Source: Oscillospiraceae bacterium (GTDB lineage Bacteria; Bacillota; Clostridia; Oscillospirales; Ruminococcaceae). Taken from it: a stretch of 64,000 nucleotides of DNA. Made by a program: the position numbers and the translations under genes. Positions 55,475-60,865 of this stretch are shown here, one piece after another. Position 1 is the stretch's first letter. Each line of letters opens with the position of its first letter. The stretch lies in assembly GCA_018110985.1 (NCBI GenBank), contig JAGAWT010000033.1, positions 62,001 through 126,000 on the forward strand. Direction: 5' to 3'. The notes under the pieces were generated by a model that made no database searches, was not told the DNA's origin, and was given only the letters and a program-made list of their open reading frames with translations.

Positions 55475-56142
55475 TTTATCCGCCGCCTCGGGTATTTCAG
55501 GTCACAGGGAGACACTTTTCTCACTATTATGAGCCTCCTTTTTTCACCGTCCGGCAGGGAGTATTCAAAGATGTTTTCGGTCTCACCGCCAAATATCTTC
55601 GGAACAGAGGTGTCGATCTCCTCACCCGGTCCCTTGTAGGCTGCAAATATGCCGCCTGTATGAGTGAGAGGAAGGCAGTATTCACAGAGAACATCGAACG
55701 CAGCCACAGCCCTTGCGGTACAAAGACCGAAGCTCTCACGCATTTTTCGTCCTGCCTCCTCTGCCCTCATATGTACACAGTTCATAGGCAGAGTGGCAGC
55801 ACTCACTTCCTTCAGAAATGAAATGCGCTTGTTGAGGCTGTCTATAAGCGTCATTTCCGTGGAGGGACTCATGATCTTCAGCACCGTTCCCGGAAAGCCC
55901 GCACCTGTCCCCACATCTGCGGCGGTGTCGGGCATCTGTACATACCGGAGCAGCATGGCACTGTCCAGCAGGTGCTTGCAGGTAATTTCTTCCGGCTCCG
56001 TAATGCGGGTCAGGTTCATGCTGCGGTTCGTTTCAAGGAGCATCCCGATGTAGGTGTCCATGAGACCGTACTGTTCTTCGGTCAGACAGAGCCCGTATCC
56101 CGAGAACAGCTCTGCGGTCCTTTCAAACTGAAGTATGTTCAT
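55471..56142 (-). CDS. rsmG: 16S rRNA (guanine-N7)-methyltransferase RsmG
   Basis: 223 residues from the ATG at 56140-56142, which overlaps the gltA stop by 4 bases and has AAAGGA upstream. SAM-binding DVGTGAGFPGTVLKI, upstream MNLTRI and HLLDSAMLL typical of RsmG/GidB. It methylates G527 (E. coli numbering) of 16S rRNA; loss gives low-level streptomycin resistance. Confidence 0.95.
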   Translation of the reverse strand: MNILQFERTAELFSGYGLCLTEEQYGLMDTYIGMLLETNRSMNLTRITEPEEITCKHLLDSAMLLRYVQMPDTAADVGTGAGFPGTVLKIMSPSTEMTLIDSLNKRISFLKEVSAATLPMNCVHMRAEEAGRKMRESFGLCTARAVAAFDVLCEYCLPLTHTGGIFAAYKGPGEEIDTSVPKIFGGETENIFEYSLPDGEKRRLIIVRKVSPCDLKYPRRRIK

Positions 56143-57482
56143 TGTATCCTTTTGTCTATCTCCACATATTCCTTGGATCTGAGTATGCTCTTGTATGCGG
56201 GGCGGATTATCCTCTTGCCGGTGGTGCATTCCTCAAAGCGGTGAGCACACCAGCCTGCCATTCTTGAAACTGCAAACAGCGGCGTGTAAAGATCCTCGGG
56301 GATGCCCAGCATCTTGTAAACAAAGCCCGAATACATATCCACATTTGCACACATTTGCTTGTCGGAGCCCTTGACGGTGCGCATAAGCTCGGGAGTCAAC
56401 TTCTCAATGGTCTGAAGGAGCCTGAATTCCGGCTCGAACTCGGAGCCCTCCGCCATTTTGCGGGCATTTTGCTTGAGTATGACTGCTCTGGGATCGGAAA
56501 GGGTGTAAACAGCATGACCCATGCCGTATATCAGGCCTGAGCCGTCACCTGCTTCCTTTTGGAGTATCTTTGTGAGGTAGGCTGCTACTTCGTCTTCGTT
56601 TTCCCAGTCCTCCAAATTTGCCATTATCTCTTTGTGCATCTGCAGTACCTTGTGGTTGGCACCGCCGTGACGAGGCCCCTTGAGGGAGCCTATGGCAGCG
56701 GAGTAGGCGGAATAGGGGTCGGTGCCCGAGGATGAGAGCACACGGCAGGTAAAGGTGGAGTTGTTTCCGCCGCCGTGCTCCGCATGGAGCATGAGCATGA
56801 TGTCAAGGAGCTTTGCCTCTTCGTCGGTGTATTGTCTGTCTGGCCTGAGAAGGGAGAGTATGAGCTGAGAGGTGGAAAGTCCCTTTATGATGGGGTGCAT
56901 TATGAGAGAGCTGTTCTCAAAGTACCTTTGCTTGACAAAGTAGGCATTTACCATGAATACGGGCATCTTTGAGATTATGGAAAGTGCGGTCTCCACTTCG
57001 TGCTCTACGGTCACGGTGTCAGGGTCGTCGTCGTAGGAATACAGGGAGAGGACTGAACGTGCCAGCTTGTTCATTATGTTTTTTGAGGGGGCTTTGAGTA
57101 TCATATCCTCAAAAAAGCCGTCCGGCAGCTCCCTGCGCTCATCGAGCAGATCTCTGAACTTGGAGAGCTGCTCGGTGGTGGGCAGCTTTCCGCAAAGGAG
57201 AAGATAGGCTATCTCTTCATAGCCGAAGCGCCCTTCCTTTACCACAGCATCCACAAGGTCGTTTATGCTGTATCCCCTGAAAATGAGCCTGCCCTCATCG
57301 GGGCTTTTCTCACCTTCGTTGAGCACATAACCGTGAACGTTGCAAATCTTGGTGACCCCCGCAAGAACACCGGAGCCGTCGGGGTTTCTCAGTCCCCTTT
57401 TTACATTATAGCTCTCGTAGTATTTGGGGTCTATCTTGTTTTCATCGATATAAGCCTTGTAAAGCTCATTTAAATTATCCAT
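56139..57482 (-). CDS. gltA: citrate synthase
   Basis: 447 residues. Catalytic regions: HAEHGGGNNSTFT, RHGGANHKV (His) and GMGHAVYTLSDPRA (His), then the late Asp-containing FVYKMLGIPEDLYTPLFA (landmark only). Condenses oxaloacetate and acetyl-CoA; in an organism without an evident full TCA cycle it would feed glutamate synthesis. It lies between lysC (36 bases) and rsmG (overlap), so amino-acid and housekeeping genes share a transcript. Confidence 0.95.
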   Translation of the reverse strand: MDNLNELYKAYIDENKIDPKYYESYNVKRGLRNPDGSGVLAGVTKICNVHGYVLNEGEKSPDEGRLIFRGYSINDLVDAVVKEGRFGYEEIAYLLLCGKLPTTEQLSKFRDLLDERRELPDGFFEDMILKAPSKNIMNKLARSVLSLYSYDDDPDTVTVEHEVETALSIISKMPVFMVNAYFVKQRYFENSSLIMHPIIKGLSTSQLILSLLRPDRQYTDEEAKLLDIMLMLHAEHGGGNNSTFTCRVLSSSGTDPYSAYSAAIGSLKGPRHGGANHKVLQMHKEIMANLEDWENEDEVAAYLTKILQKEAGDGSGLIYGMGHAVYTLSDPRAVILKQNARKMAEGSEFEPEFRLLQTIEKLTPELMRTVKGSDKQMCANVDMYSGFVYKMLGIPEDLYTPLFAVSRMAGWCAHRFEECTTGKRIIRPAYKSILRSKEYVEIDKRIQ

Positions 57483-57518: not shown

Positions 57519-58838
57519 TTATACGGAAAGAACGAACATATCATAGATAGCCCTTATGGCTGCCTCGAAATCTTCTTCCTCCACACCGACAATGATATTG
57601 AGCTCGGAGGAGCCCTGATCTATCATCTTGACATTGATGCGTGCATGGGCAAGGGCTGAAAACAGCCTTCCCGCCGTACCTCTTGCCTTTCTCATGCCCC
57701 TTCCCACAACGGCGATGAGAGCAAGGTTGTTCTCTATCTCCAGTTTGTCGGGATGACAGCGGAAGTTTATCTCGTCAAGGACAGACTTTTCCTTTCCTAT
57801 AAGTGCATCGGACGAAACTATTACGCTCATGGTGTCGATGCCGGAGGGCATATGCTCAAAGGAAAGGTTGTTCTTTTCAAGGGCACGCAGGACATTCTTC
57901 CCGAATCCTATTTCGGAGTTCATCATGTCCTTTTCTATCTGGATGACGGAAAGCCCCTTCTTTCCTGCAATTCCCGTGATCGTGTACTGAGAGGTCTGGG
58001 CGGTCTCCGATACGATAAAAGTGCCCTCATCCTCGGGGGAATTGGTATTTCTGATGTTTATGGGGATGCCCGCTCTGCGGACAGGGAAAATAGCATCCTC
58101 GTGGAGAACGCCCGCACCCATGTAGGCAAGCTCTCTGAGTTCCTTGTAGGTGATGGTGGTTATGGGAACGGGATTGTCTACTATGGTGGGGTTTGCCACC
58201 AGGAAGCCCGAAACATCGGTCCAGTTTTCGTAGATGACTGCATCTACCGCATTTGCGACAATGGAACCGGTTATATCGGAGCCGCCTCTTGAAAAGGTCT
58301 TGATGGTATCGTTGGGCATGGAGCCGTAGAAGCCGGGTATAACAGCCTTTTCGGTCTTGGAGAGCCTTTCTCCCAGCTTTTCCCTTGTGGTATCAAGATC
58401 GAAGGCGCCTGTTTCGTCGAATTTGATATATCCCGCAGGATCCACAAATTCAAAGTTCAGATAAGCCGCAAGTATCTTTGAGTTAAGGTATTCTCCCCTG
58501 CTAGCTGCATAGTCACGTCCCGCCATGTGGGCAAAAGCATCCTTGATCCGTGTAAATTCCTTTTCAAGAGAAAGCTCCAGCCCCAGTCCCTCGATTATGT
58601 CGGTGAACCTTTTCTCTATGCACTCAAATTCCTTGTCGAACTCTTCGCCCTTTGCTGCCTTTTCGTAGCAGCCGTAGAGCATATCCGTTACCTTTGTGTC
58701 TCCGGAGAACCTTTTGCCGGGTGCGCTTGCTACCACAAAACGCCTTGCAGGCTCAGCCAGTACTATGGCAGCCACTTTCTTGAACTGCTCGGCGCTTGCC
58801 AGGGAGCTTCCTCCGAATTTTACTACCTTTGTTTCCAT
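57519..58838 (-). CDS. lysC: aspartate kinase
   Basis: 439 residues. N-terminal amino-acid kinase domain (VVKFGGSSLAS, TFSRGGSDITGS, NWTDVSGF) and two C-terminal ACT modules (about 300-439) that bind the feedback effector. First step of the Lys/Thr/Met branch. It follows hom by 22 bases; a monofunctional kinase next to monofunctional homoserine dehydrogenase suggests supply of homoserine for threonine and, via metA at 7-8 kb, methionine. Confidence 0.95.
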   Translation of the reverse strand: METKVVKFGGSSLASAEQFKKVAAIVLAEPARRFVVASAPGKRFSGDTKVTDMLYGCYEKAAKGEEFDKEFECIEKRFTDIIEGLGLELSLEKEFTRIKDAFAHMAGRDYAASRGEYLNSKILAAYLNFEFVDPAGYIKFDETGAFDLDTTREKLGERLSKTEKAVIPGFYGSMPNDTIKTFSRGGSDITGSIVANAVDAVIYENWTDVSGFLVANPTIVDNPVPITTITYKELRELAYMGAGVLHEDAIFPVRRAGIPINIRNTNSPEDEGTFIVSETAQTSQYTITGIAGKKGLSVIQIEKDMMNSEIGFGKNVLRALEKNNLSFEHMPSGIDTMSVIVSSDALIGKEKSVLDEINFRCHPDKLEIENNLALIAVVGRGMRKARGTAGRLFSALAHARINVKMIDQGSSELNIIVGVEEEDFEAAIRAIYDMFVLSV

Positions 58839-58860: not shown

Positions 58861-60075
58861 TCAAAGAACTCTTATCTTGCCTGCAACAAAGCCGTCAAAG
58901 GCTTCAAGCCTGTCGTTTATTGCCGATTCCTTTTCCTCGGCTGTGATAAAGGCGGTCTCCCCGTCCTTTGCGCCCTTCAGGAACTCGGCACCCGGGAATG
59001 CTTTTGATGCTTCGCTCTCTGTCACACCTATGAGCCTTATGTACATACGCACCTTCTGATCCCTGTAATCTGCAATGAAGCTGTCGTCGGTGCTGTCCTC
59101 CCATGTGGCGGAGAGGATGGTGCCCTTTGTTTCGGCACATTCTATAACATCGCCCAGAACTGCGCTTGCGGTTGGCAGCTTTCCTGCGCCCTTTCCGTAG
59201 AACATGACCTCATCAAAGCCGTTTCCGTAGACCATAACGCCGTTGAAAACATCGTTTACAAAAGCAAGCTGATTTGAGAATGGTACGAAGCGGGGTGCCA
59301 CAAGGGGGAAGATCCTGCCGTCGTCGAGCTTTTTGACGGAGCCTATGAGCTTTACGGCATAGCCGTTTGCCTTTGCATAGGCGGCATCGGCTGCGGTTAT
59401 CTTTGTGATGCCCTCTGTGTGGACACTGTCGGGGTAAACGTGCTTTCCGTATACGAGGGAGGAGATGATGCAGATCTTTCTGCAGGCGTCGTGCCCCTCC
59501 ACATCCGCCGTTGGATCCTTTTCGGCATAGCCCTTTGCCTGTGCATCCGAAAGTGCCTTTTCAAAGGGGGTGGAGTGTTCTATCATCTGAGTGAGGATGT
59601 AGTTGGTGGTGCCGTTCAGTATGCCCTCCACCGCAGTTATCTCATTTCCTGCCAGATCTTTGTGCAGTGGTCTTATAAGAGGGATGGCACCGCCTGTGGA
59701 AGCCTCAAAGAGGAAGTTGCAGTTGTGGGCTTTTGCCAGTGCTATGAGCTCAGCACCCTTTTTTGCCACCAGCTCCTTGTTTGAGGTGCACACGCTCTTT
59801 CCTCTTTCAAGGCATTTCTTTACAAAGTCGAAAGCCGGGTTCACGCCGCCCATGACCTCTGCCACAACGGTCACATCGTCATCGTTCAGGATATCGTTTA
59901 TATCCTTTGTGAATCTGTCCGAATAGGGCAGACCGGGAAAGTCCCTTATATCAAGGATATATCCCAGTTCAAGGTCTGTGCCCTGACGGGAGTTTATCCT
60001 TTCCTTGTTTTTGAGGAACAGTTCCACCGTTCCCGAGCCCACCACTCCGTGACCCATTACTGCAAACTTTGACAT
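58861..60075 (-). CDS. hom: homoserine dehydrogenase
   Basis: 404 residues. NAD(P)-binding MGHGVVGSGTVELF, substrate loop EGILNGTTNYIL, catalytic Lys in YGKGAGKLPTASAV. The C-terminal part (about 345-404) is a short ACT-like extension, shorter than in some Firmicute enzymes. Converts aspartate semialdehyde to homoserine. Preceded by the ACT protein gene (31 bases). Confidence 0.95.
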   Translation of the reverse strand: MSKFAVMGHGVVGSGTVELFLKNKERINSRQGTDLELGYILDIRDFPGLPYSDRFTKDINDILNDDDVTVVAEVMGGVNPAFDFVKKCLERGKSVCTSNKELVAKKGAELIALAKAHNCNFLFEASTGGAIPLIRPLHKDLAGNEITAVEGILNGTTNYILTQMIEHSTPFEKALSDAQAKGYAEKDPTADVEGHDACRKICIISSLVYGKHVYPDSVHTEGITKITAADAAYAKANGYAVKLIGSVKKLDDGRIFPLVAPRFVPFSNQLAFVNDVFNGVMVYGNGFDEVMFYGKGAGKLPTASAVLGDVIECAETKGTILSATWEDSTDDSFIADYRDQKVRMYIRLIGVTESEASKAFPGAEFLKGAKDGETAFITAEEKESAINDRLEAFDGFVAGKIRVL

Positions 60076-60106: not shown

Positions 60107-60535
60107 CTACATTATTATTTTAAGCTCTACCACACCCGGTACTTCCGACAGCTGCTCTGTGATATGTCCGCTGTCGTATTCGGTGAATTTAAGGGTGAGA
60201 GTAACTGCCGCAGCACCGTTCACAGGCACGGACTGGTTGAGAGTCATCACATTGGCGCCCTGTGAATGTATTACGGACAAAAGGGAAGAAAGAACTCCCG
60301 GTTCGTCTTTCAGCACTGCGTATATAGAGAGTATGTCCGGCTTTCTTTCCTTTTCATAGGAGAAAACGCAGTCCTTGTATTTGTAGAAGGCGCTCCTTGA
60401 AATGCCTACCCTTCTGCACACGGCGGTGTGGCTCTTTTCGTCTCCCACAGCCAGCAGCCTTTTGGCTTCAAGTACCTTCAGCACCACGTCGGGCAGCACG
60501 CTGCGCCGCACAAGAAGAAGATCCTCGTCGGACAT
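60107..60535 (-). CDS. ACT-domain protein, PheB/UPF0735 type
   Basis: 142 residues from the ATG at 60533-60535 with AGAGGGTG upstream. An N-terminal helix-turn-helix-like part (LLAVGDEKSHTAVCRRVGISRSAFYKYKD in outline; landmark VGISRSAFYKYKD) and a C-terminal ACT domain (DEPGVLSSLLSVIHSQGAN). The combination suggests an amino-acid-responsive regulator, consistent with being first in the homoserine/aspartate-kinase operon; its direct target is unproven. Confidence 0.88.
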   Translation of the reverse strand: MSDEDLLLVRRSVLPDVVLKVLEAKRLLAVGDEKSHTAVCRRVGISRSAFYKYKDCVFSYEKERKPDILSIYAVLKDEPGVLSSLLSVIHSQGANVMTLNQSVPVNGAAAVTLTLKFTEYDSGHITEQLSEVPGVVELKIIM

Positions 60536-60560
60536 ATTATCACCCTCTTTTCGTGAAAAC

Positions 60561-60598
60561 AAAAAATACTACAGTACGGGCTTCAAGTCCGTACTGTA
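60561..60598 (-). terminator. terminator-like hairpin in the leader of the ACT-hom-lysC operon
   Basis: Minus-strand 10-bp perfect stem TACAGTACGG (60589-60598) with CCGTACTGTA (60570-60579), nine-base loop, then GTATTTTTT. It lies between promoter and first gene, so it would act as an attenuator or antiterminator target, not as an end-of-operon terminator. Confidence 0.75.
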
Positions 60599-60625
60599 AA
60601 TACAGTTGTGTTTGTGATAAATACA

Positions 60626-60654
60626 AGTATACCACAGATGGTTTTTATTGTCAA
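60626..60654 (-). promoter_or_regulatory. sigma-A promoter of the ACT-hom-lysC-gltA operon
   Basis: Minus-strand TTGACA (60649-60654), 17 bases, TATACT (60626-60631). Leader to the first start codon is about 85 bases and is mostly the attenuator hairpin. Confidence 0.85.
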
Positions 60655-60777
60655 TAAAACAAGAAAAATTTATCTATTTTGCACAAAGTGCGGTGAAAAG
60701 CTATGATTAAATTTAATTTATCACATAAAGGAAATTGAATACTGTATATGATTTGCGGATAAATTATATGTTTTCTG

Positions 60778-60806
60778 TTGATTTTCACAAAAAAATATGC
60801 TAAAAT
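60778..60806 (+). promoter_or_regulatory. sigma-A promoter of the lipid-kinase gene
   Basis: TTGATT (60778-60783), 17 bases, TAAAAT (60801-60806), about 60 bases before the start. Confidence 0.65.
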
Positions 60807-60865
60807 CATATATACAAGTTTAGATCTTCCTTTTAAAAAGGAAAACAGACCGGGAGTGTTCTTGC

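Follow-up and report, generated by a model that had tools for sequence, protein, structure and literature searches.

The window (the whole 64,000-nucleotide stretch of DNA analyzed here) carries on its minus strand, in the order of transcription, thrR, hom, lysC, and a gene for a gltA-type citrate synthase. The promoter and the genes are located as follows:

60649-60654, minus strand: -35 hexamer TTGACA (promoter scan)
60626-60631, minus strand: -10 hexamer TATACT, with TG ahead (promoter scan)
60107-60535, minus strand: thrR (pheB-type), encoding a 142-aa HTH plus ACT protein (NF003361 match and structural model)
58861-60075, minus strand: hom, homoserine dehydrogenase
57519-58838, minus strand: lysC, aspartate kinase of the NF006540 family
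56139-57482, minus strand: gltA-type citrate synthase

The two promoter hexamers are separated by a 17-nt spacer and match the consensus at 11 of 12 letters. Transcription of the operon is expected to start near 60619, and the resulting leader (60619-60536, ~84 nt) ends at the thrR ATG at 60535. We collected 126 thrR loci (16 from the genus, 80 further, and 30 at order level); hom is found on the thrR strand no more than 500 nt downstream in 116 of them. When the 19 genus lysC loci were analyzed by tblastn, hom was detected in the fetched flank of lysC in the window only, and a citrate synthase gene lies on the lysC strand in 16 of the 18 other loci. A 41-nt segment ahead of the divergent 308-aa gene (window positions 60778-60818) recurs elsewhere in the genome (G000:C26:22647-22687, 83%). 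No Rfam family matches the leader, and nothing was returned over 60400-60800 with E up to 1; at gathering threshold, the sole match in the whole window is a tRNA elsewhere. A T-box or riboswitch leader was rejected for want of such a match.

The thrR product matches NF003361 with 131.3 bits, barely above the cut-off of 131. In a structural model based on 31 aligned proteins (mean pLDDT 87.4, pTM 0.54), a helix-turn-helix (HTH) occupies residues 36-53, with helices at 36-43 and 47-53, and an ACT fold of beta-alpha-beta-beta-alpha-beta order occupies residues 67-140. The second HTH helix is largely unchanged across the 31 proteins, in which HTH residues S46, R47, S48, A49, Y51, K52, and Y53 are invariant. 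When 14 control genomes were searched for the PheB/ThrR family, only B. subtilis gave a match both at E ≤ 1e-30 and above the cut-off. A sequence search of the PDB with ThrR revealed no homologue. A fold search returned ACT-domain chains and, along the full length, NikR, which superposed with a poor rmsd of ~13-18 Å and offers a loose analogy only. We conclude that the first gene product is a PheB/ThrR-type HTH-ACT protein. Matches to thrR were present in 16 of 20 genus genomes and absent from the other four; the closest genus ThrR is only 61% identical to that of the window, and hence there is no close strain among the relatives compared.

Immediately 3' of the -10 box, an array of TGT and ACA half-sites begins:

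60586-60625, minus strand: 40-bp putative ThrR operator array, TGT-N13-ACA-N2-TGT-N13-AC(T), 11 of 12 half-site letters
60607-60625, minus strand: putative operator site 1, TGTATTTATCACAAACACA
60586-60604, minus strand: putative operator site 2, TGTATTTACAGTACGGACT, carrying the conserved GGAC

The array reads TGTATTTATCACAAACACA AC TGTATTTACAGTACGGACT and follows a grammar of two 19-bp TGT-N13-ACA sites with a 21-bp period, about two helical turns of DNA. A repeat finder independently reported an 8-nt direct repeat with 21-nt spacing within it. We scored upstream regions by the best 12-letter half-site match in ~250 nt, using all 126 thrR loci and, in addition, 30 phylum thrR loci, taken from the best 30 of 199 matching genomes. 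All 16 genus thrR leaders (15 relatives and the window), which share descent and are not independent counts, scored 11-12 of 12 (fraction of shuffled genus leaders scoring at least 11, 0.0000), and in each of them the array starts at an offset of 0 or -1 nt relative to the -10 box end. A score of at least 10 was reached at 60 of the 80 further loci (shuffles, 0.013), a set with many near-identical members that was dereplicated only for the letter-frequency count given below; 20 fell below 10. The same threshold was reached at 15 of the 30 order-level loci (shuffles, 0.011), with 15 below, and at 16 of the 22 phylum loci where thrR adjoins hom (shuffles, 0.008), with six below. Inspection of several other phylum thrR-hom promoters, L199, L201, L207, and L212 among them, showed the outer TGT and ACA at the 40-bp span with inner half-sites lost.

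An alignment anchored on the ACA-N2-TGT core near the -10 box comprised 118 leaders (80 after dereplication); from the 126 loci, L116, L118, L119, L122, L144, and L145 were removed by a motif filter, and L066 and L129 for want of a core. L004 and L019 are the same contig. In the 80 dereplicated leaders, the strongest letters outside the core are found 13 bases past TGT (A, 98%; C, 92%), and a G stands two bases ahead of this far A/C in 83%. GRAC occurs at offset 14 from TGT in 53 of the 80, regardless of the distance to the start codon. The TGT 13 bases ahead of ACA is less well conserved, its three letters occurring in 60, 48, and 65%. In L015, L060, L076, and L094, the right half-site forms, by eye, one part of a small inverted repeat (for instance TTGTGCG-N6-GCGCACAA), giving the impression of an added half-site. 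The first-pass annotation of this DNA had assigned a regulatory element to the leader, and the results support one: judged from the sequence, what relatives keep in the leader is an operator-like array directly adjoining the -10 box, and not the hairpin.

The same annotation had pointed to threonine codons in the leader. In the frame ATC ACA AAC ACA ACT GTA TTT ACA GTA CGG ACT TGA, five of the 11 sense codons are indeed Thr, and the TGA falls in the hairpin loop; as also claimed, no start codon precedes them, with no ATG, GTG, or TTG in the six in-frame codons ahead. All five Thr codons lie within the 40-bp array, at array positions 10, 16, 19, 28, and 37 (counted from 0). The run of Thr codons is, on the evidence of this overlap, explained by the array, since the array letters spell Thr codons. 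In the 15 genus relatives, the aligned 12 codons contain 2-4 Thr. We consider it extremely improbable that a threonine leader peptide is translated from this frame. The density of Thr codons would suit such a peptide, as would L012, which shares the TGA and in which the aligned frame holds an 11-codon ORF that begins with GTG and includes three Thr. However, the window frame is without a start codon, the window leader contains no closed ORF of at least six codons, 14 of the 15 relatives have no stop in the aligned codons, and the Thr codons coincide with operator letters.

The leader also contains the following elements:

60570-60598, minus strand: hairpin, perfect 10-bp stem TACAGTACGG / CCGTACTGTA, 9-nt loop
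60561-60566, minus strand: T6 run, 3 nt (GTA) past the stem

The first-pass annotation had described a promoter followed by a perfect 10-bp stem and TTTTTT, 26 bases before the start codon, and had considered regulation by termination likely. Promoter, stem, and T run are all present, but stem and T6 are not contiguous, and the T run is separated from the thrR ATG by 25 bases. The hairpin search gave one match in the window and none in 100 shuffles, and the repeat finder extended the stem to 14-nt arms at 93%. The leader folds with -22.6 kcal/mol (z -3.95, none of 200 shuffles as good), and the hairpin by itself with -14.3 kcal/mol. Given these fold and shuffle results, the window hairpin is more than chance locally. 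In the predicted leader fold (60536-60619, minus strand), UAUCAC at the 5' end is base-paired to GUGAUA, located at the thrR ribosome site.

Conservation of the hairpin was the check that the annotation itself had set beforehand as able to overturn its proposal, and the hairpin proved not to be conserved. A terminator-like hairpin (stem of at least six pairs plus a T-rich tail) past the array was detected in only two of the 118 leaders, those of the window and of L008, against 1.3 expected from shuffles, and a conserved terminator was rejected. At the positions of the window arms, 2-7 of the 10 pairs form in the 15 genus relatives. Regulation by termination is not supported by these counts. 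A lineage-specific attenuation, in which hairpin and T6 terminate a share of transcripts on top of ThrR control, either with a sensor or as constant damping, is unlikely. The length and stability of the stem, the T6 close behind it, and the z-score of the leader would agree with it, as would the overlap of the hairpin 5' arm with operator site 2, which would place bound ThrR and the hairpin on common sequence. Against this stand the rarity of the hairpin in relatives, the GTA between stem and T run, and the lack of both a leader peptide and an Rfam match. The best reading is that the hairpin is incidental or lineage-specific; that the operator reading gives no role to a locally non-random hairpin counts against that reading, and the hairpin may still terminate transcription in the window lineage.

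The array recurs at promoters of aspartate-pathway genes. We chose eight genomes for a B. subtilis-type thrR-pheA arrangement before hom was searched; recognized by eye from protein ends, a pheA-like neighbor is present in all eight and an obg-like one in seven (none shown for L204). The hom promoters of these genomes match 12 of 12 letters in 8/8 (shuffles at ≥10, 0.008), with the array starting at the -10 edge (-1) in five and at +14/+15 in three. As controls, we took places not expected to have an operator of their own: thrR upstream regions of the same genomes reached 10 in 0/8, and hom genes directly downstream of thrR in 0/24. Four further hom loci showed no thrR in the flank that was fetched; of these, L229 scored 11, and L242, L243, and L248 scored 8, L248 being one of two hom genes in a genome in which the first carries the array.

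For lysC, 17 of the 19 genus loci were counted, the window and the truncated L198 being left out; like the genus thrR loci, they share descent, and the counts are not independent. A score of at least 10 was obtained at 11 of these 17 lysC genes, none adjoining hom (L182, L185-L188, L190, L191, and L193-L196), and six scored below 10, one of which (L189) has only ~150 nt ahead of the gene. The typical lysC array is TGTCC-N7-AAATACAGCAGTATTT-N7-GGACA, and in 11/11 loci with an array it starts upstream of the lysC -10 box, 103-104 nt from the end of that hexamer. A second recurring box, approximately TTTGTCTTATATGGCAATTGA, runs into the lysC -35, for example in L188, L191, and L193. At thrD of B. 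subtilis-type genomes, searched as NF006540, the same family as the window lysC, the signal was weaker: 3/7 loci reached at least 10 (shuffles, 0.019), and four were below. The position of the thrD array was taken from the four of seven loci with a visible core (L250 placed by hand); it is 73-75 nt upstream in three of the four, and for L254 the array start is 10 nt past the best -10.

Other targets were sought in the same genome as the window. The thrC upstream region there scored 7, with no array, which counts against the operator reading. Scanning for AAATACA-N2-TGTATTT with up to two mismatches gave 13 sites per strand versus 21 in a backward control, and only the window site had a single mismatch; scanning for TGTATTT-N-TCACAAAYACA with up to three mismatches gave nine sites versus six in the control, the window site being the only perfect match. 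The second-best-looking site (L105/L113), one of eight loci whose setting was inspected, lies inside a large reading frame and was rejected.

Because it lies upstream of the lysC promoter in 11 of 17 separate lysC loci, the array is probably a DNA element. An array acting in RNA, with ThrR or another factor binding the leader transcript, is highly improbable. In favor of it, the transcript expected at thrR would include the array, and some leaders, those of L004 and L009 among them, form a hairpin at site 1; the place of the array ahead of the promoter at the 11 lysC loci does not fit this view, and DNA is indicated by the symmetry of the two sites, their 21-bp repeat, and the HTH. From gene context we infer that the protein binding the array is ThrR, and the first-pass annotation had likewise named the HTH plus ACT product of the first gene as a candidate RNA- or DNA-binding partner, which the results support as the likely one. 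It is quite improbable that a transcription factor other than ThrR binds there: the assignment does rest on genomic context, but the array is found at thrR-hom promoters and at hom in all eight B. subtilis-type genomes, which fits the known target of ThrR.

We therefore favor, as very probable, a model in which ThrR binds across the -10 edge and the start site and thereby prevents transcription from initiating at the thrR-hom-lysC-gltA operon, to which its own gene belongs. ThrR would occupy the array as two dimers or as a tetramer. Because the two 19-bp sites cover the region from the -10 edge to ~+34, bound ThrR would occlude RNA polymerase, and the operon, thrR included, would be repressed. 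The ACT domain would sense an aspartate-family amino acid, most likely threonine, and repression would presumably set in when the end product is plentiful. At lysC the array lies upstream of the promoter, and occlusion alone is hard to apply. Both this and the loci of each set that score below 10 weigh against the model. Its fixed upstream place at lysC and thrD would imply activation or looping, and we tentatively suggest, as a possibility short of even odds, that ThrR works in two ways through one 40-bp four-half-site operator, repressing at the thrR-hom start and acting by activation or looping at lysC and some thrD genes. If this is true, such an upstream site could not be accommodated in the window lineage, where lysC is part of the hom operon. 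With ThrR repression of its own operon as the preferred reading, the attenuator proposed for this leader is replaced by a testable operator, whose grammar (two TGT-N13-ACA sites, 21-bp period) recurs in the genus, the order, and more distant genomes of the phylum.

The enteric thr operon is controlled by a leader-peptide attenuator with Thr codons and a hairpin followed by a T run, and the window leader resembles it in having Thr codons, a hairpin, and a T run ahead of aspartate-pathway genes. In contrast to the enteric leader, that of the window is without a start codon, its hairpin is not conserved, and its Thr codons belong to the putative operator. Consecutive Thr codons ahead of a gene can thus arise simply from the letters of a site in the DNA. 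T-box leaders control amino-acid genes in Bacillota, and the likeness lies in leader control of such genes; the window leader differs in its length of ~84 nt and in matching no Rfam family.

The ThrR regulator and its hom target are already known. In Rosenberg 2016, ThrR reportedly binds to hom and to the aspartokinase gene thrD, in competition with RNA polymerase, and the four-half-site grammar may already stand there. In the literature searched, we found no four-half-site grammar, no autoregulated thrR-hom-lysC-gltA operon, no fixed lysC upstream site, and no match for "ThrR box," which does not show that the operator is unpublished. PMC8226366 describes ThrR of B. subtilis as the repressor of hom-thrC-thrB and gives 970 units of hom-lacZ beta-galactosidase, versus 275, with a mutation that affects the ThrR site in the hom promoter; PMC6522883 lists ThrR as a negative regulator of ThrC. 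The two systems share a PheB/ThrR-type HTH-ACT protein, a site in the hom promoter region, and control of homoserine dehydrogenase. An aspartokinase gene may be a further target in both, reportedly thrD in B. subtilis and here, putatively, lysC, which lies in the operon in the window and has the array upstream at 11 of 17 separate genus loci. They differ in the place of the regulator gene: in B. subtilis, thrR sits between obg and pheA (as given in PMC8226366), whereas here it heads an operon with hom, lysC, and gltA, with putative autoregulation.
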